The notes under the pieces were generated by a model. The model ran no database searches. It was not told the DNA's origin and saw only the letters and a program-made list of their open reading frames with translations. A stretch of 64,000 nucleotides of DNA from contig NC_008278.1 in assembly GCF_000058485.1 (NCBI RefSeq), forward strand, positions 2,660,962 through 2,724,961, given 5' to 3'. Position 1 is the stretch's first letter; each line of letters begins with the position of its first letter. Below are positions 55,311 through 64,000 of the stretch, piece after piece. The stretch comes from Frankia alni ACN14a (GTDB taxonomy: Bacteria > Actinomycetota > Actinomycetes > Frankiales > Frankiaceae). The position numbers and the translations under genes were made by a program.

Positions 55311-55395
55311 CTCTCGTTCGTACATGATCGCTTGAGGTTGGGTCTCGGCGATCACTCTGTGGGCTCCTGGCTGGTAGGTGAGCTGGAGTCCGAGC

Positions 55396-56221
55396 GACAC
55401 TGTTGCATTACGGGGAAGCTGAACATGCCAGCGGCTGGGGCGAGCGCCGGTCAAACGGCTGCGGCGAGTTCGGTGAACGCGGCTGCCAGTCGCAGCGGCG
55501 GGTGGGCGTCGATGGCGAGTTCATAGTGGCCGCGGCGGATGTTCTGGATCAGGGCGTGTCCGGCGCTGACGGTCTGGACCGAGCGCAGCCGTTTCAGCCC
55601 GCGCATAGGCCGCAGCCGTGCTTTCAACCGGCCGTGGTCGGCTTCGATCCGGTTGTTCTCCCGGGCGGCGTCGACGTGGCAGGCCTCCGGGAGCAGCTCG
55701 TCGAGGACCCGCGGGTAAACGGCGGCCTTGTCGGTGGTGACCTCGACCGGTCGACGGCCATGAGACAGCGCCCGGGTGAAGAAGCGGCGGGCGGCGGTTT
55801 GGTCGCGTCGTTCGCTGGCGAAGACGTCGATGACCTGTCCGTGCTGGTCAACGGCACGGTACAGGTAGGTCCAGCGGCCGGCGACCTTCACATACGTCTC
55901 ATCCACGAACCACCTGTCGTCCGGCCGATGCCGACACGGCCTGGCCGCCTCGGCAAGCAGGGGTACGAAGCGCTGCACCCACCGGTAGACAGTCACGTGA
56001 TCAACTTCGAGGCCGCGTTCCGCGAGCAGCTCCTCGACATCCCGGTACGACAACGCGAACCGCAGATACCACCGCACCGCCAGGACGATCGCCTCCGGCG
56101 GGAACCGGAACCCCGCGAACTCCGACACCGGAACCGGCGGACAGCCACGACGTCGACGCATCCCTCGATCATGACCGATCGACGGCCGCTGGACAGCGGA
56201 CTCCGCCGATGCAACAGAGCC
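55396..56221. mobile_element. IS6-family insertion sequence
   Basis: The 826-bp element is bounded by terminal repeats typical of IS6: GACACTGTTGCAT at the left and the complement of GGCTCTGTTGCAT at the right, sharing CTGTTGCAT. It encodes one DDE transposase on the minus strand. The 8 bases outside the two ends (GTCCGAGC and CGGATGGT) do not match, so no target duplication remains, which fits an IS6-mediated adjacent deletion or cointegrate. The right end sits inside the histidine kinase gene. Confidence 0.85.
55451..56161 (-). CDS. IS6-family DDE transposase
   Basis: 236 residues, full family length. RGCPPVPVSEFAGFRFPPEAIVLAVRWYLRFALSYRDVEELLAERGLEVDHVTVYRWVQRF opens it; the DDE residues appear in WFVDETYVKV, VTTDKAAVYP and NRIEADHGRLKARLRPMRGLKR. 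No disabling mutation is seen, so the element may still move. Confidence 0.93.
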   Translation of the reverse strand: MRRRRGCPPVPVSEFAGFRFPPEAIVLAVRWYLRFALSYRDVEELLAERGLEVDHVTVYRWVQRFVPLLAEAARPCRHRPDDRWFVDETYVKVAGRWTYLYRAVDQHGQVIDVFASERRDQTAARRFFTRALSHGRRPVEVTTDKAAVYPRVLDELLPEACHVDAARENNRIEADHGRLKARLRPMRGLKRLRSVQTVSAGHALIQNIRRGHYELAIDAHPPLRLAAAFTELAAAV

Positions 56222-58218
56222 CGGATGGTTGTTCCGGTGCCGGGGTCGGTGTGGACGGTCAGCGACCCGCCGAAGGCTTCGGCTCGGTCGGCGATGCCTC
56301 GCAGCCCGGGTCCACTGGGCTGAGCGCCGCCGATGCCGTCGTCGCGGACCTCGACGATCAGCTGCCCGTCTGGGGCTGAGACGTCCACGGCGATGGTGGT
56401 CGGGTGGGCGTGTTTGACCGCGTTCGCCATCGCCTCGCAGGCGATGAACCAGGCGGCTGCCTCCAGATCGGGCGGATATCGCCGGTCCGGAGCAGAGATC
56501 TTGATGGGTACGGGGGTGCGGGCGGCGACGTCGTCGAGCGCGGCGGCGAGCCCGCCGTCGGCGAGGACCGCGGGGTGCAGGCCGTTGGCCAGTTCGCGGA
56601 GCTCGACCACGGCGGCCTGCAGCTGATCGATGCCCGTACTGATGGCTTGGCGTAGCGAGGCTTCGTCGCCGCCCAACTGCACAGCTCGTAGCTGAAGGGC
56701 GAGTGCGAGCAGGCGTTGCTGCGCGCCGTCGTGCAGGTTGCGTTCGATGGTGCGGCGCTCGGCGAACTGGGCCGCGGCGATCCGGGTGCGGGACTGGCGT
56801 ACCTCGACGAGCTGGAGTGCGACCGCGGCGCGCAGGCCTGCGTTGTCGAGTTCGGCGGTCGCCGCCGTTGCCGCGGCGCGGACGAGGCCGGGTTGAGCCC
56901 TGCCACGGTCGAACGTCACCCGGGCGATGGGTCGGCCGCGCCGGTATACCTCGACGGCCGCCATAAAACTGTTGCCGGGGTTGGCTGGCTGTCCGTCTGC
57001 GCTGACCCATTGGCGACGGTCATCGACCAGGTAGGCCACCGCTAGCGTGGGGTCACCCAGTGCACGGCGCAACACCTCCTCAACGGCGACGTCGGGGTCG
57101 GGGTCCCGTAGATAGCGTCGGATCACCTGCAAGGTCTCGAACCGCCGCCGGCTAAACCGCCGGTCGACCCCTTCCTGGATCTTCCGGTAGGCCGGGGCGG
57201 TGACCGCGACAGCGGCGAGCGTCGCGAGCACCGCGGAGATCTGTGAACGCCCGGTCCGGCCGGCGAGCGACTGCCCGACGACGATCACGACCGTCGCGTA
57301 GGACGCCGCGAGCAGCCCGGAGACGAGCAGGTACGTGACGGCCCGGCTGAGGATCTCCTCGACGTCGTAGAGGTGGTACTGGCCGATCGCCAGCCCGGCA
57401 CCGATCGCCAGCAGGCCGATCAACGTCGCCGCGGCGAGGCCGGCGGCGGTGTTGTTGCCCGCGTACGAGGCGGCGAACGACGCAGCCATCAGCACCGGCA
57501 AGGGGACCGCGGCCACCGCCACCCACAGCAACTGGCGGCGCTCGACGTCTACGGATCGGCGGAACCGGACGATCAGCGACACCGCCGCCAGCACAACACC
57601 AGCTCCAGTCGCCAGCCCCAGGACCCTGCGAGCGACCAGCAACGGACCGAGCGGCCCACCGATCAGCAGCGGATTGGTGACTGACTGGAACGGGGGCTGC
57701 ATGGTCTCGGTGGTGACCAGACCCACGAGCAGCCACAGGCCGCCGGCGACCGCGGTCGCGAGCGCGATCCGTCCCCAACGGGCGGACAGCGGTCGGCCCG
57801 TCGGCGTCAGATGAAGAATGAGCGCGACGAGCACCAGCCATGGAATGAAACCGGCATCCGCGTAGATCGCCACCAGGTCCGCGGCGGGCAGACGACCCGG
57901 GCGGGCCACCGCGCCGTAGGCGGCATACCCCTGTGTCCCACCGGACAGCAGCAGGACGCCGCCCAGGGCGAGGAACAGCCAACCGACCGGATGGCGCGGG
58001 CGACGCAGCGCGAGAGCGACTCCGACCGTCGACGCGGTCGCCGCGACCAGCACAAACGGGATCTCTGCCCCGCCGGTGGTCGTCACGAGGTCGGGACGTC
58101 CCATGGCGCGCAGACGCTGATCCAGCCACACCAGCACACCGACGCCGGCCGGCAGCAGCAGCCACGCCGCCCCCGCGACAGCCACCGCGGTTCTCCGCCG
58201 CGCCAGCGTCATCTCCAT
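55993..58218 (-). CDS. NarL-type sensor histidine kinase, end replaced by IS6
   Basis: About 665 native residues: an N-terminal membrane block of roughly ten helices, a GAF-like region, then HisKA_3 with His496 in ERRTIERNLHDGAQQRLLALAL and HATPase_c (EAMANAVKHAHPTTI, RDDGIGGAQPSGPGLRGIADRAEAFGGSLTVHTDPGTGTTIR). At 56221 the IS begins, adding about 76 residues of IS-derived sequence until a stop at 55993. Only a few native residues are missing, so the kinase may work. Such kinases normally sit next to a LuxR-type regulator; none is here. ATG at 58212 is an alternative start. Confidence 0.85.
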   Translation of the reverse strand: MEMTLARRRTAVAVAGAAWLLLPAGVGVLVWLDQRLRAMGRPDLVTTTGGAEIPFVLVAATASTVGVALALRRPRHPVGWLFLALGGVLLLSGGTQGYAAYGAVARPGRLPAADLVAIYADAGFIPWLVLVALILHLTPTGRPLSARWGRIALATAVAGGLWLLVGLVTTETMQPPFQSVTNPLLIGGPLGPLLVARRVLGLATGAGVVLAAVSLIVRFRRSVDVERRQLLWVAVAAVPLPVLMAASFAASYAGNNTAAGLAAATLIGLLAIGAGLAIGQYHLYDVEEILSRAVTYLLVSGLLAASYATVVIVVGQSLAGRTGRSQISAVLATLAAVAVTAPAYRKIQEGVDRRFSRRRFETLQVIRRYLRDPDPDVAVEEVLRRALGDPTLAVAYLVDDRRQWVSADGQPANPGNSFMAAVEVYRRGRPIARVTFDRGRAQPGLVRAAATAATAELDNAGLRAAVALQLVEVRQSRTRIAAAQFAERRTIERNLHDGAQQRLLALALQLRAVQLGGDEASLRQAISTGIDQLQAAVVELRELANGLHPAVLADGGLAAALDDVAARTPVPIKISAPDRRYPPDLEAAAWFIACEAMANAVKHAHPTTIAVDVSAPDGQLIVEVRDDGIGGAQPSGPGLRGIADRAEAFGGSLTVHTDPGTGTTIRALLHRRSPLSSGRRSVMIEGCVDVVAVRRFRCRSSRGSGSRRRRSSWRCGGICGSRCRTGMSRSCSRNAASKLIT

Positions 58219-58245
58219 CCGTGAATGGTGACACCGCACCGGTCG

Positions 58246-58277
58246 TCTTTTCTTCCGGGAATACCCGGAAGAAAAGA
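58246..58277. promoter_or_regulatory. 32-bp perfect inverted repeat between kinase and membrane gene
   Basis: TCTTTTCTTCCGGG at 58246-58259 and its exact complement at 58264-58277 flank AATA, in the 141-bp gap between the divergent kinase and membrane-protein genes. It may be a two-component regulator site or a hairpin. It is the longest perfect operator-type repeat in the window. Confidence 0.7.
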
Positions 58278-58359
58278 TCCGGGCGTACTCCGACGCGCCC
58301 CACGGTCCGGATGCGACACCGTCGCGGCAACCGTTCCACCCGCCGAAAGGACGCCTCCG

Positions 58360-59046
58360 ATGACCCCATCCGCCCGTAGTGGCCCCACACCGCCCCCGGC
58401 CCTGCTGCTCTGCCTGGTCGCCGCACCCCTGGTCGCCCTGATCGCGCGACTTCTTTCCGCCCCCTGGGTGGACGATCCCGCGAACTTCCTCGCAGACGTC
58501 AGCGCCCACCCGACCCGCTCGGACGCCGGTGGTCTGCTCGCCATGCTCGCCGCGGCGCTCCTGATCCCAGCCGGCCTGACACTCGCGGCGGCCATCCGCC
58601 CACACAAGCCGAAACTGGCCGCAACCGGCGCCACGCTCACCGTCGTCGGCACGATCGCGCTCGCCGGTATCGCGACGGCCTCACTGATCGCCGGACAGAT
58701 CGCCCGGCAACCCCAACGGGCCGCGATGGTCGACCTGTGGGACCACTTCCACAACGCCAGCATCGGAAACGTCATCTTCTTCGCGCTCGTCGCCGGCGGC
58801 GTCGGTTACCTCCTGCTCGCCATCGGCCTCTACCGCGCCCGAGTCGCCCCGCTACCGGCCGCCGCCCTCACCGGCCTCGGCGGGGTCGGCATCATGCTCA
58901 CCGCCCCCGGCCCAGCCCGTCCAGTGATCATCGGTGTCGCGGTGCTCGCGCTCGTCGGCTTCACCTGGGTCGCCGCGGCATTCCGCCCCCGAACTGACCC
59001 CGACCACGCGCATCGCACCACTCCCGCAGCCAACACCGCCGCCTAA
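58360..59046 (+). CDS. Hypothetical membrane protein with six helices
   Basis: 228 residues. Hydrophobic segments: LLLCLVAAPLVALIARLL, GLLAMLAAALLIPAGLTLAAAI, GATLTVVGTIALAGIATASLIAG, NVIFFALVAGGVGYLLLAIGLY, ALTGLGGVGIMLTA and VIIGVAVLALVGFTWVAAAF. The repeated layout resembles DUF4386-like membrane proteins. ATG at 58360 follows AAAGGA. It is divergent from the kinase across the 32-bp palindrome, and may be the regulated target. Confidence 0.75.
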   Translation: MTPSARSGPTPPPALLLCLVAAPLVALIARLLSAPWVDDPANFLADVSAHPTRSDAGGLLAMLAAALLIPAGLTLAAAIRPHKPKLAATGATLTVVGTIALAGIATASLIAGQIARQPQRAAMVDLWDHFHNASIGNVIFFALVAGGVGYLLLAIGLYRARVAPLPAAALTGLGGVGIMLTAPGPARPVIIGVAVLALVGFTWVAAAFRPRTDPDHAHRTTPAANTAA

Positions 59047-59296
59047 CGGCCGCCGCCGCGCTGGCCCGCGCCTGTCCCACTATCCAGCCTGCCAATGGCC
59101 ATCTCCCAGCCGCGGCACCAATTCCACGACGAGCCCGGGAGGGGTCGTCCACCGACGGCCTCGCATTTCCCCGGGAGTCATCGCCGCCGCTCACCAGTGC
59201 GGCCGATCTCCGCAAGCCAGATCTCCACTCATGCCGTCACCGAGACAGACCTGGCAAACCAGGTCGAGCAGATGTCCTGACCGAAACGAGGACGCA

Positions 59297-59707
59297 GTGC
59301 CGGTCACAATCGGTTTCAATCACGTCGCCACGCTCACAGCCGATCTCGATAAGATCGTGAAGTTCTACACCGACGCACTCGGGGCCACGATGACGTCCGA
59401 GATGCAGGCTGTGGGAGACCACCCACGCATGGCCGTCGTCGACCTCGGTGAAGGTGCCGCGCTCAATGTCTTCGAGGTGCCGGCCGAAGCCATCATCGGC
59501 GACAGGCGCCAGAAAGGCGGGCGGGGCCCGATCGACCACTTCGCTCTCGCCGTCGACTCGCTGGAGACCCTCCAAGCCACTAGGGATCGGCTGCGCAGTC
59601 TGGGGGCTGACACCGGCGAGATCCAGCGGCTCGGATCCGAGTGGTCGCTGTTCTTCCGCGACCCGGACGGCATGGAGCTGGAAATCTGCTGCCATGCCGA
59701 TCAATGA
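59297..59707 (+). CDS. VOC (glyoxalase/bleomycin-resistance) family protein
   Basis: 136 residues. Two beta-alpha-beta-beta-beta modules: FNHVATLTADLDKIVKFYTDALGATMTSEM and IDHFALAVDSLETLQATRDRLRSLGADTGEIQRLGSEWSLFFRDPDGMELEICCH. Metal-site residues (His8, His82, Glu130 by position) are present, so a dioxygenase, isomerase or lyase role is possible. GTG at 59297 begins the first strand directly. The stop is close to the transposase remnant. Confidence 0.85.
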   Translation: MPVTIGFNHVATLTADLDKIVKFYTDALGATMTSEMQAVGDHPRMAVVDLGEGAALNVFEVPAEAIIGDRRQKGGRGPIDHFALAVDSLETLQATRDRLRSLGADTGEIQRLGSEWSLFFRDPDGMELEICCHADQ

Positions 59708-59743
59708 ACCGCTCGACCTGCAGCTGCCGGTCGAAGGTGGGGT

Positions 59744-59945
59744 GCGGGGTCAACACCGGCGCGGTGCAGGTCCGCCAGACGGTGGCGACCCCGACCGGGT
59801 AGCCCAGCCCGACGAGCTCGCCGTGGATCCGGCGGTGGCCCCAGGTCGGGTTCTCCTGCGCCAGGCGCAGGACCAGATCGCGGATCTCCCGGCGGATCAG
59901 TGGCCGTCCGGGCGACTTCCGCGGATAGGTCCATTTCCTGACCCA
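59744..59945 (-). pseudogene. N-terminal remnant of an integrase-core transposase
   Basis: Minus-strand frames read KSPGRPLIRREIRDLVLRLAQ, NPTWGHRRIHGELVGLGYPVGVATVW and, after a frameshift, RAGVDPAP. This is the stretch just before the catalytic core in IS3/IS481-like actinobacterial transposases. It ends at 59744, in a 21-base sequence that also opens the other remnant at 63413-63433. Confidence 0.75.
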
Positions 59946-59949
59946 GCGT

Positions 59950-60753
59950 CTACGCCACCATTGTGGCCAGTTGCCCCACCGACGCTTCGAGTTGGGCAGC
60001 GGAGACAAGCGGCAGACGCGGTACTTTTGCCGGGTGGGTGACCGCCGCCCAGTCGTAGGTGTGGGTCACCTCGGTGCGGCCGTCGTCGGTCGGGGTGAGC
60101 GTCCAGGTAAAGCGGTGACCGTCCGCGCGCTGACTCGGTCGGCCGGGCGCCCAGCCGATGACCCGGTTCTCGGTGAAGGTCACGACGTGGTTCTCGATCC
60201 GGTAGTCACCCTGCTCGTCGTTGTGCATCGCCATGACGAAGGTGTCGCCGACGGCGCCGATCGGGTCGAGGGTCTCGGCGCGGCGCAGGAAGCCGGTGGC
60301 GTCGAGCTCGGGGTGGCGGCGGGGGTCGCGGAGCACCGCGAAGATCCGGTCGGCCGGGGCGTCCAGCACCCGGGAGACGGTGGTGTGGGTCGGGCCGTTC
60401 ATGGTGACCGGGTCGGGGTAGAACCGGGCCCATGCGATCCGTCCGTCGCGGGTGGTGAGCACCACTGGGCCGCGCAGCACGACCGTCGCCCCGGTCGGGG
60501 CGGTGCCCCGCATCTCCCACTCCGACCACAGTTCGTCGCCGTTCTGGGCGTGGCGCAGGATCTCGGCCTGCAGGTCCGGCAGCCCGGCCAGGATCTTCCT
60601 CCAGTTCGCGGCGACATGGTCGGAGCCGATAAACCCCTCATGCGGCTTCAGCGGCCGCTCGGCCACGTAGTCGTCCGTGAAGCAGCTGGCGATCCGCTCC
60701 GGGACGTGGGAATTGATCGCCACTCGCAACGCTTCCAGGGCCTCGGGGACCAT
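59950..60753 (-). CDS. NTF2-like (SnoaL) and SRPBCC domain fusion
   Basis: 267 residues. Residues 1-120 are SnoaL/NTF2-like (EALEALRVAINSHVPERIASCFTDDYVAERPLKPHEGFIGSDHVAANWRKIL then ILRHAQNGDELWSEWEMRGT and ARFYPDPV). From about 125 an SRPBCC/START domain follows (VSRVLDAPADRIFAVLRDPRRHPELDATG, GDTFVMAMHN, YDWAAVTHP). Both bind hydrophobic small molecules; the fusion may be a cyclase or ligand carrier. It lies between two transposase remnants and is divergent from the STAND regulator. Confidence 0.85.
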   Translation of the reverse strand: MVPEALEALRVAINSHVPERIASCFTDDYVAERPLKPHEGFIGSDHVAANWRKILAGLPDLQAEILRHAQNGDELWSEWEMRGTAPTGATVVLRGPVVLTTRDGRIAWARFYPDPVTMNGPTHTTVSRVLDAPADRIFAVLRDPRRHPELDATGFLRRAETLDPIGAVGDTFVMAMHNDEQGDYRIENHVVTFTENRVIGWAPGRPSQRADGHRFTWTLTPTDDGRTEVTHTYDWAAVTHPAKVPRLPLVSAAQLEASVGQLATMVA

Positions 60754-60873
60754 GCCTTCGACTCCTCACTCGCCGGTTCGTCCTGTCACTGTCCATCGTG
60801 ATCATCGGGATGCGGCTCGACAACCGGACAACGCCCGGACACCGCCCCTACAGCGGCGGACATAATCGAGATC

Positions 60874-63078
60874 GTGAATGATCCGTCGGGACCGGCGCGG
60901 AAGGCGCGCAGCTTCGCGGCCGTGCTGCGTGAACTGCGGGAGGCCAGGTCGCTGACCCAGCAGGAGCTGGCCGCCGCCGCGGGCCTGTCCGTCGATGCGG
61001 TCAGCGCGCTGGAACGCGGGCGGCGGACCCAGCCCCAGCCGCACACCGTGCGGTCGCTGGCCTCGGCGCTGCAGCTCCGCGACGCCGAGGCCACGGCGCT
61101 GCTGTCGACGCTGGGACGGGCGGGGAACGGGGCCCTCGAGATGCCGTCCCGCACCTTGACGTCCCACCCTCCGCCTCCGCCGGCTGTCCCGGTGGTCGGG
61201 CGGGACGACGAGGTCGCCGAGATCGTCGCCGCTCTGCGTTCCGCGCCGGGCCGGCTGGTGACGCTCACCGGCCCAGGCGGGGTCGGCAAGACCACCGTCG
61301 CGCTGTTGGCGGCACAGACGGTGGTCGCCAACCACCCGGGCGGGGCATTCTTCGCCGACCTCACCGACGTCACCGACCCCGACGACGTCCTCGCCGTCGT
61401 CGCCCTCGCGGCGGGAACCCACGCCGACACCGTGACCGGCCTCGCCGTGCACCTTGCCGGGGCGGCGGTCCTGCTCGTTCTGGACAACCTGGAGCGTGTG
61501 GCCGCCTGCGCTCCGCAGTTGGTCGAGCTGCTGTCGGCCTGTCCCGGCGCGGTGGTCCTGGCCACCAGCCGCGTTCCGCTGCGGGTGCGTCGGGAACGCG
61601 AGATCCGCATCGCCCCGCTGGACCCGACGGCGGCCGTGCGGCTCTTCAGCGAGCGGCTGACCGCCGCCGGCGCACGATCGCCGACGACGGGCGGGCAGGA
61701 CGACGATCCCGTCGCGCAGCTGTGTCGGCAGGCCGACGGGCTACCACTGGCCATCGAACTCCTGGCCGCCGCAGCCGCGCGACTCGGCCCCCAGGCACTG
61801 CTGGACCGGGTCGATCAGTTGGCGGAGCTGCCTGTGGCCGGCCCCCGGGACCTGCCGGCGCGGCAACGCACCATGGCGGCCACCATCGAGTGGAGCTGCC
61901 GAATACTCGGCCCCGCGGCTCGCCGGCTGTTCCCGCGGCTCGCCATCGTCCCGGGCAGCTTCTCCCTGGATACCGTCGACGGGATCGCTGCGCCGGACAC
62001 GGCGGATGCGGTGGGCGCGCTCGCCGAGTTGATCGAGCACTCGCTGGTCGCCCGCAGCGACGCCGGACAGGTCGCGCGGTTCCGGCTGCTGGAACCGGTA
62101 CGCCGGTGCGCGCTCGAGACGCTCGAACCGACCGAGCGGGAGCAGGTCCAGCGGAGCGTCAGCCAGTGGGCCCTCCACACGGCGCGCGAACTCGGCGCAC
62201 GGATCCGGGGCCGCGGCGACATGACGGCGGTGGAGCAGGTCGAGGTCGATCGCGGCGTGCTGCGGCTCGGGTACGACCAGCTCGTCGACGCCCGCCGTCA
62301 CGACGACGCCGCCGAGCTGCTGTGGTCGGTGTGGTTGCCGATGTGGATGAGCGGGCACACCCGCGAAGGCTTCGCCTGGACCGAACGCCTGCGTGAGGGC
62401 GACCTGAGCGAGCGAGGCCGGGCCCGCTGGTTGGTGGCGCGCGCTGGGTTCAACCGCGTCGCCGCGAACCTGTTCGCCACCGCGGAGCGGGCGATGCGGC
62501 TGGCCGAACGGGTCGACGACGCCTCCCTGGCCGCGGAGGCGGCGATCTTCGCGTCGGCGGCGGCGCTGCGCCTGGGGGACTTCGACGGTTCAGGGGCTCT
62601 GCTGGCTCAGGCCGAGGCGCACGTCACGCAGCGGCTCGACGTTGGGAACGACGTGTGGGCGGCCGTGCACGTGCCCATCGGACGGGGGGACGGCGCGCTG
62701 CTGCGCGGCGACCGGTCCGCGGCGATGCGGCATTGGCGGGCGGCCGCAGCCACGGCGCAGGAGGTGGACAGCGGGTTCTCGGTGGCCGCGGTCCTCGCGG
62801 AGTGCGCGCAGGCCGCCCGCAGCGAAGGACGTCTGGACGACGCGGCCGTAATGCTCGCCGCCGCCGACGAGCTGGGCCCCCAGCGGGACGGGCACCGGCG
62901 TCGGGCGCACCTGGCGGGCGTGGCCGCTGCCGTGGCGGCCGAACTCGGTGACGTGGCCTCGGCGCAGTGGTGGGAGGGCGTGGCGGGACCGGACGCAGCT
63001 TCATTGGACACCGATGAGCTCCGCGAGCAGTTCCGGGAGCTGGTCCGGCGCGCCGACACCGTCTCCGGGCAGGACTGA
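60874..63078 (+). CDS. XRE-HTH STAND ATPase regulator with TPR-like C-terminus
   Basis: 734 residues. An XRE HTH (about 12-65: [46 protein letters not shown]), then a NB-ARC/STAND ATPase: GRDDEV, Walker [14 protein letters not shown] (131-141), [16 protein letters not shown] (Walker B), [18 protein letters not shown] and [18 protein letters not shown] (GLPL). From about 430 it is helical TPR-like. Such proteins are ATP-switched transcription activators; there is no SARP domain. GTG start at 60874, divergent from the NTF2-SRPBCC gene. Confidence 0.9.
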
Positions 63079-63237
63079 GCTCGACCGTCCGTACCGGCGG
63101 CGTCCGGTCGGTGTCTGGTGGTCTCTCGCGAGCGGGGTGGCGAGACTCGAGGTCATCGGGTCGGCCTGTGGGGCTCCAGAATCCCGATTCGGCCTGTGAT
63201 CTGGTCTGTTGCGGTTGATGCGATCTTCCGCGGGAGG

Positions 63238-63433
63238 TGTCGGATGTTTCGTGACCCCGAGAACATGGACGTCGCGGGTGGCGTGTTCGACGACGAAGAA
63301 CACGTAGATCCGCTGGAGGAACGCGGTGTCCACCGTGAAGAAGTCGCAGGCCAGTATGCCGGAGGCCTGCGCGGACAGGAACGTGCGCCGGGAGGTGTCG
63401 GCCCGGCGGGGCGCGGGGTCAACACCGGCGCGG
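63238..63433 (-). pseudogene. Catalytic-core remnant of the same transposase
   Basis: Minus-strand reading [14 protein letters not shown], then [21 protein letters not shown] and [19 protein letters not shown], ending near HPT. This is the start of the rve catalytic core, with the first catalytic Asp in FFTVD. It begins with the 21 bases found at the end of the remnant at 59744-59764 and continues the protein exactly where that remnant stops. Confidence 0.8.
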
Positions 63434-63485
63434 CGACCGGATCCGGAGAACCGACTACCAACCAGGCCCCAGTCTGGTCGACAGC

Positions 63486-64000
63486 TCATGCCCGCCACAG
63501 TTGAACGCCCGGTCGGGTAAGCACGACATTGGGCACTGCTGCGTAGCGCGACATCCGGCTCAACCCCATGACCAGCTCGGCGACGTCGTCAACCTTGATC
63601 ATCTCATCTCGGGGAATACGGCCGCGCACCCACTCGGTCATATCGGTGTCGACGTAGCCCGGCGAGATGGCCGTGGCGTTGACGCCGCGCTTTCCCTCGG
63701 ACACGGTGAGAGACTCGCACAGCGAGATCAGTGCAGCTTTGGTAGCCCCGTACGCGGCTAGATCCGGTTCGGCGGCAACGCCAGTGATCGACGCGATCGC
63801 GACGACCCGGGCGCCTCGGCTCCGCTGCGCGTCGGCCGCAGCCCGCAACGCCGGCAGCAGACGCTGCACGAGCAGAAATGGAGCCCGCAGGTTCACCGCG
63901 ACCTGGACGTCCAGGCGACGCAGCGGGTACTCGGCGAACGGACCAGCCGTGCCCACACCTGCCGCGAGAACCAGCAGCTCCAGCCTGGGTGATATTTCGA
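63486..64000 (-). CDS. SDR-family oxidoreductase, N-terminus beyond the window
   Basis: 171 residues of a short-chain dehydrogenase. [15 protein letters not shown] corresponds to the NNAG motif (with LAAG here), VVAIASITG holds the catalytic Ser, [11 protein letters not shown] the Tyr-x-x-x-Lys, and SPGYVDTDM the post-catalytic loop. The cofactor-binding N-terminus lies past 64000. The frame is open to the edge, so the GTG at 63956 is not the start. The cofactor and substrate are unknown. Confidence 0.88.

Follow-up and report, generated by a model that had tools for sequence, protein, structure and literature searches.

How did two pieces of one transposase come to stand in swapped order on either side of two other genes? 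This question is raised by a 64,000-nucleotide stretch of the Frankia alni ACN14a genome (here termed the window), which comprises bases 2,660,962-2,724,961 of the 7.50-Mb single contig (G000). The initial annotation had reported transposase remnants on both sides of the two genes, sharing 21 identical bases, and both were found where it had placed them, the shared sequence lying at 59744-59764 and 63413-63433 of the plus strand. In fact, the repeat reaches 27 matches in 29 bases (59736-59764 versus 63405-63433), its first mismatch falling in the sequence of the left flank, outside the insertion sequence (IS). Both remnants are in the same (direct) orientation and in permuted order. As the annotation had also argued, the halves stand in the wrong order for a simple insertion into a single transposase gene, which is thereby excluded.

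The remnants belong to an IS family whose full-length element of ~1.22 kb, with ends TGTGGGGCTCCAG, is present in the genomes G002, G007, G019, G022 and G025. The intact copy at G007:C713 contains one ORF of 368 aa with HTH and integrase core matches, in which rve_3 was detected above its cut-off (E 1e-14); the window pieces by themselves gave no rve match in Pfam. When the intact relative was compared with the whole NCBIfam library, the IS481 model was the best (120.5 bits, with a cut-off of 224) and the IS3 model the second (77.9 bits, with a cut-off of 160; NF033577 / NF033516 for IS481 / IS3). By these matches the element is IS481/IS3-like, apparently nearest to IS481, and falls below both family cut-offs. 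In the IS481 family, the terminal inverted repeats start with TGT; here, copies in the relatives have TGTGGGGCTCCAG at both termini, and the window has it at 63167. The HTH, the integrase core, the single ORF and the terminal inverted repeats of the intact relative resemble those of IS481/IS3-like elements, from which the window differs in holding fragments only. As to a target-site duplication, the copy at G012:C403 is flanked by GGCC on both sides, whereas nothing consistent was seen around the other copies examined, and the other end of the window remnant is lost. Many copies of this family are partial or internally deleted, the G012:C403 copy, for instance, retaining 9-160, 478-953 and 1075-1234. 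The G000 genome contains no full copy, only fragments; besides those discussed here, two end fragments lie 103-116 kb downstream (G000:C1:2840442-2840583 and 2827139-2827215).

The two remnants were measured on the G002 copy (positions 9-1228) as a ruler and by minus-strand tblastn with the intact 368-aa relative transposase as query. The left fragment (59736-59935, minus strand) corresponds to element positions ~680-873 at 85% identity and represents the upstream half of the transposase, residues ~105-158 being read in one frame and 161-170 in another across 59935-59739. One frameshift interrupts the residues that it encodes (~105-170); residues 1-~105 and an IS end of its own are missing, its limits on both sides are internal breaks, and its HTH_32/HTH_21 Pfam matches are both below cut-off. 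The right remnant as a whole (63167-63445, minus strand) comprises the 3' end and the middle of the element, between which ~425 bp have been deleted. Its first part (63167-63241) is the true 3' element end with the terminal inverted repeat TGTGGGGCTCCAGAATCCCGATT, identical to the G002 copy in 75/75 bases (ruler 9-85, 100%), and its second part (63239-63445) corresponds to ~511-716 at about 90-91%, with residues 163-227 encoded at 63432-63238 (91% identity) and the last ~10 bases belonging to the right flank as a chance match. Judged by their alignments, the homology of both pieces to a single IS family is certain, and the description of a single transposase in permuted pieces held in the tblastn mapping, with the amendments that the right remnant is longer than had been described and the left one is frameshifted.

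It had also been proposed that joining 63433 back to 59744 would restore the transposase. This was not the case, since the join yields only 440/1220 IS bases and a frameshifted residues ~105-227 of 368, without residues 1-~105 and without everything past 227, including RDRDTKF (position 254) and PQANAIAERR (283), two conserved-looking stretches of the intact protein. In this IS family, the 21 shared bases are simply part of the coding sequence, in a stretch conserved around VDPAP, and a 19-base core of them was found at just these two sites in 35 genomes of the bacterial family. A role of the 21 bases as the core of a site-specific integration was therefore rejected: Pfam identified no integrase among the block's two genes, and the exact core was not found in the genomes of relatives.

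The gene-pair block extends over 59941-63166. Its first gene (59950-60753, minus strand), with 57 relatives, encodes a 267-aa two-domain protein with SnoaL_2 and Polyketide_cyc2/AHSA1 (SRPBCC-type) Pfam matches, and the second (60874-63078, plus strand) a 734-aa XRE-STAND-like regulator with HTH_31/HTH_3 (XRE) matches and weak AAA/nSTAND/NB-ARC matches that fall below the Pfam cut-offs. The block is 98.9% identical to G012:C111:2551-5776 in Frankia sp. AiPs1 (C111 matching NZ_JAMQQF010000010.1) and 98.5% identical to G003:C1:2896585-2899810 in Frankia sp. QA3 (matching NZ_CM001489.1). These two relatives agree with each other past both block ends (4.08 kb, 98.5%) and carry no close IS at the edges of the pair; thus, none of the relatives checked shows the pair and the IS as a unit. 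The pair is widespread in actinobacteria, with 57 loci, the first 12 of which show 76-99% protein identity and alignments of 1.9-3.2 kb to the block, and two Streptomyces plasmids (H1, 86.5%; H2, 79.7%). No close IS copy was found beside it in the 18/57 loci that were aligned to the block or in the two plasmid loci, the sole IS match near it being one of 67%, about 4.5 kb off, in QA3. Entry by a plasmid was rejected, because, although similar pairs are present on the two plasmids, nothing connects the window copy with one. Divergent SnoaL/SRPBCC and XRE-STAND pairs at 80-99% DNA identity were seen in Frankia, Kibdelosporangium, Pseudonocardia, Thermocatellispora and Streptomyces, and the gene after the pair in AiPs1 and QA3 resembles, by eye, a macrolide-type glycosyltransferase.

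The flanks of the block have their own histories in AiPs1. The left flank, X (57473-59740, plus strand), comprises part of a histidine kinase gene, a DUF4386 gene and a glyoxalase/VOC gene (Pfam) and is 99.5% identical to G012:C603:75-2342, the homology stopping at base 59740, where the left fragment begins; in AiPs1, X continues from there into other DNA, which ~12 kb on matches G000 near 5.40 Mb. At its other end, X in AiPs1 begins partway through the histidine kinase gene, at the equivalent of window position 57473, which indicates that X there is itself a cut fragment. The right flank, Y (63435-64000, plus strand), with an SDR gene at 63486-63998 (minus strand), is 97.5% identical to G012:C403:9059-9624, and it is colinear with AiPs1 for 18 kb (98.0% over 13.5 kb). 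There, Y is preceded by 16 bases and then by a different, internally deleted IS copy of the same family, before which the DNA has only short matches in G000. An origin of both from the same IS insertion was rejected, the IS parts being 73.6% (end) and 88.7% (middle) identical as against 97.5% for Y. In AiPs1, X, the pair and Y thus lie on three contigs, with neighbours all different from those in the window, and the blocks are apart in the only relative that holds all three. Among the 13 genus genomes searched (G000 included), none besides G000 and G012 contains X or Y at such identity, and the search for an uninterrupted X-Y locus in relatives, suggested by the initial annotation, found no such site.

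The edges of these blocks are the edges of the fragments, X stopping at 59740, the pair occupying 59941-63166 and Y starting at 63435, and an exact IS end is seen at just one seam, 63166|63167. At 59740, X meets an internal break of the IS, with two G's common to both sides; the left piece then ends at another internal break (59935), not at an IS end, and is followed by TCCTG (59936-59940, without strand), a filler at an illegitimate joint that fits neither the IS nor the gene-pair block. Within the right remnant, GTC is common to both sides of the IS 85|511 seam, and the IS meets Y at about 63434, again at an internal break. These features suggest that the seams other than the IS end arose by illegitimate joining and not by homologous or site-specific recombination.

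The surroundings are also discontinuous. Window positions 1-55311 are colinear, reversed, with G003 2,974,159-2,907,711 at 82-96% identity, and this synteny ends at 55311 (G003:C1:2907711), past which both genomes have variable DNA. The pair lies 4.6 kb past this edge in G000 and 7.9 kb past it in G003, in opposite orientations relative to the conserved block, and with 98.5% identity it is closer to its G003 counterpart than any of the listed block alignments, of which the best reaches 96.2%. Being near the block edge in both genomes, with an identity above the block's own, the pair belongs to the variable stretch there. At 55451-56222, adjoining the 3' end of a histidine kinase gene at the synteny edge, a second, different transposase was observed, IS6-like by eye, with several G003 copies at 78-84%.

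On balance, the remnants would come from two IS copies in direct orientation that were truncated independently of each other and now mark the seams in a mosaic, IS-rich variable region. From the fragments and boundaries observed, the intact family, and the separate locations of X, the pair and Y in AiPs1, we infer both the presence of two copies and the order of events. One copy inserted directly after the regulator gene, at 63166, as is shown by the exact IS end there and by the relatives, whose DNA runs on without an IS, and a second copy would have stood beyond the opposite end of the gene pair. The left copy would later have been cut on both sides by deletions or illegitimate joins, and the right one would have lost its middle and upstream half, X and Y being brought against the IS remains by these deletions or joins. 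The permuted appearance would then result from the halves being two neighbouring direct copies, each without its opposite half. This account is supported by the matching edges, by the pair occurring without the IS elsewhere, by the different neighbours of the three blocks in AiPs1, by the frequency of partial copies, by G000 having fragments and no full copy of the family, and by the different identity profiles of the two pieces. In this way, the remnants are ordinary genome wear in such bacteria, and an arrival of the genes as a circle does not follow from the swapped order.

The evidence on whether one copy or two were present is divided. With random breaks in 1220 bp, the two breakpoints would fall within 37 element bases with a probability of 0.06 either way and of 0.03 for overlap, which was taken as not very rare; nevertheless, the 3-6% coincidence of two independent deletions with end points no more than ~25 bases apart counts against two copies. 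So do the bases of the 19-base core, which is private to this locus; they were seen in no other copy and fit one parent or two sister copies. The number of events, with at least four deletions or joins on top of two insertions, is also larger than a circle would need. Against a single copy, the pieces have different closest copies (G002 for the right, 90.8%; G019 for the left, 91.8%). With 15 copies as reference, the identity profiles of the two pieces give r = 0.09; 1/15 true single copies was as low, and of mixed pairs 74% equalled or exceeded this value. However, the right piece is uneven even against one copy (100%, then 91% to G002), so that copies of the family have probably exchanged sequence by gene conversion or joining, which weakens the profile test. 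A hot spot for breaks in the IS was rejected, as the two other partial copies starting nearby (678 in G005:C118 and 689 in G009:C266) are, by eye, about what chance would give.

Same-family fragments in the same orientation on both sides of passenger genes are also a feature of composite transposons; here, the outer IS ends, next to which a target duplication would be expected, are missing from both fragments. In IS26-type composites, recombination between direct copies would give a circle of the passenger and one IS. The locus resembles such (pseudo-)composite transposons with translocatable units in that its passenger genes are enclosed by two IS copies in direct orientation; it differs from them in that the outer IS ends are gone, the left inner edge is no IS end, the breaks lie inside the transposase gene and no circle was seen. 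An inversion between IS copies was rejected because the fragments are direct and not inverted.

The entry of the genes as a circle, proposed by the initial annotation, is neither needed nor shown by the locus, yet it is a possibility to which we give a minor share. The gene pair with the IS behind it would have been cut at 59941 and IS 873, end-joined to a circle, reopened in the IS and put between X and Y, a staggered break of ~25 bases in the IS being filled in to leave a permuted IS and a short duplication. A single parent IS would account for the private 19-mer and the coincident breaks with fewer events, the 873|59941 joint with its five filler bases resembles end joining, and the pair in QA3, ~8 kb from the same conserved block and in opposite orientation, is placed as a cut-out and re-inserted piece could be. 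Against this, X and Y are non-adjacent in the only relative with both, the pair is beside the IS in none of the relatives checked, the two pieces resemble different copies, and no circle was seen. It is rather unlikely that so uncommon an event occurred, in which end joining made a circle of two genes and an IS, a staggered break in the IS opened it and another site captured it; if true, the ~25-base duplication from circle capture would mimic an integrase core site.

The other proposal had been a tandem duplication with subsequent loss; applied to the pair and the IS, with the array losing its outer halves, it is improbable: the direct order and the single parent copy fit it, but two end deletions must still coincide, no doubled pair was found in the 18/57 aligned loci, and, as just one gene pair remains, a whole extra copy would have to be lost. 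Even less probable is template switching during repair, by which a single event would have copied first an IS piece and then the pair with its IS into the space between X and Y; this agrees with joints of little or no homology, one with filler bases, and by itself leaves the closeness of the two IS breaks unexplained.

Two worn direct IS copies therefore remain the favoured explanation. A published study of Frankia strains reported many transposase remnants and large rearrangements that correlate with transposase clusters (PMC2770080); the parts of that article consulted contain no description of this locus, and the term 'IS481' is absent from its main text. The window resembles the synteny breaks described there, as its conserved block ends at 55311 and IS remains follow. 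Permuted transposase halves require no circle, since two worn direct copies produce an identical pattern, and the locus shows how accessory blocks become neighbours in an actinobacterial chromosome rich in IS elements, the seams between them being marked by IS fragments.
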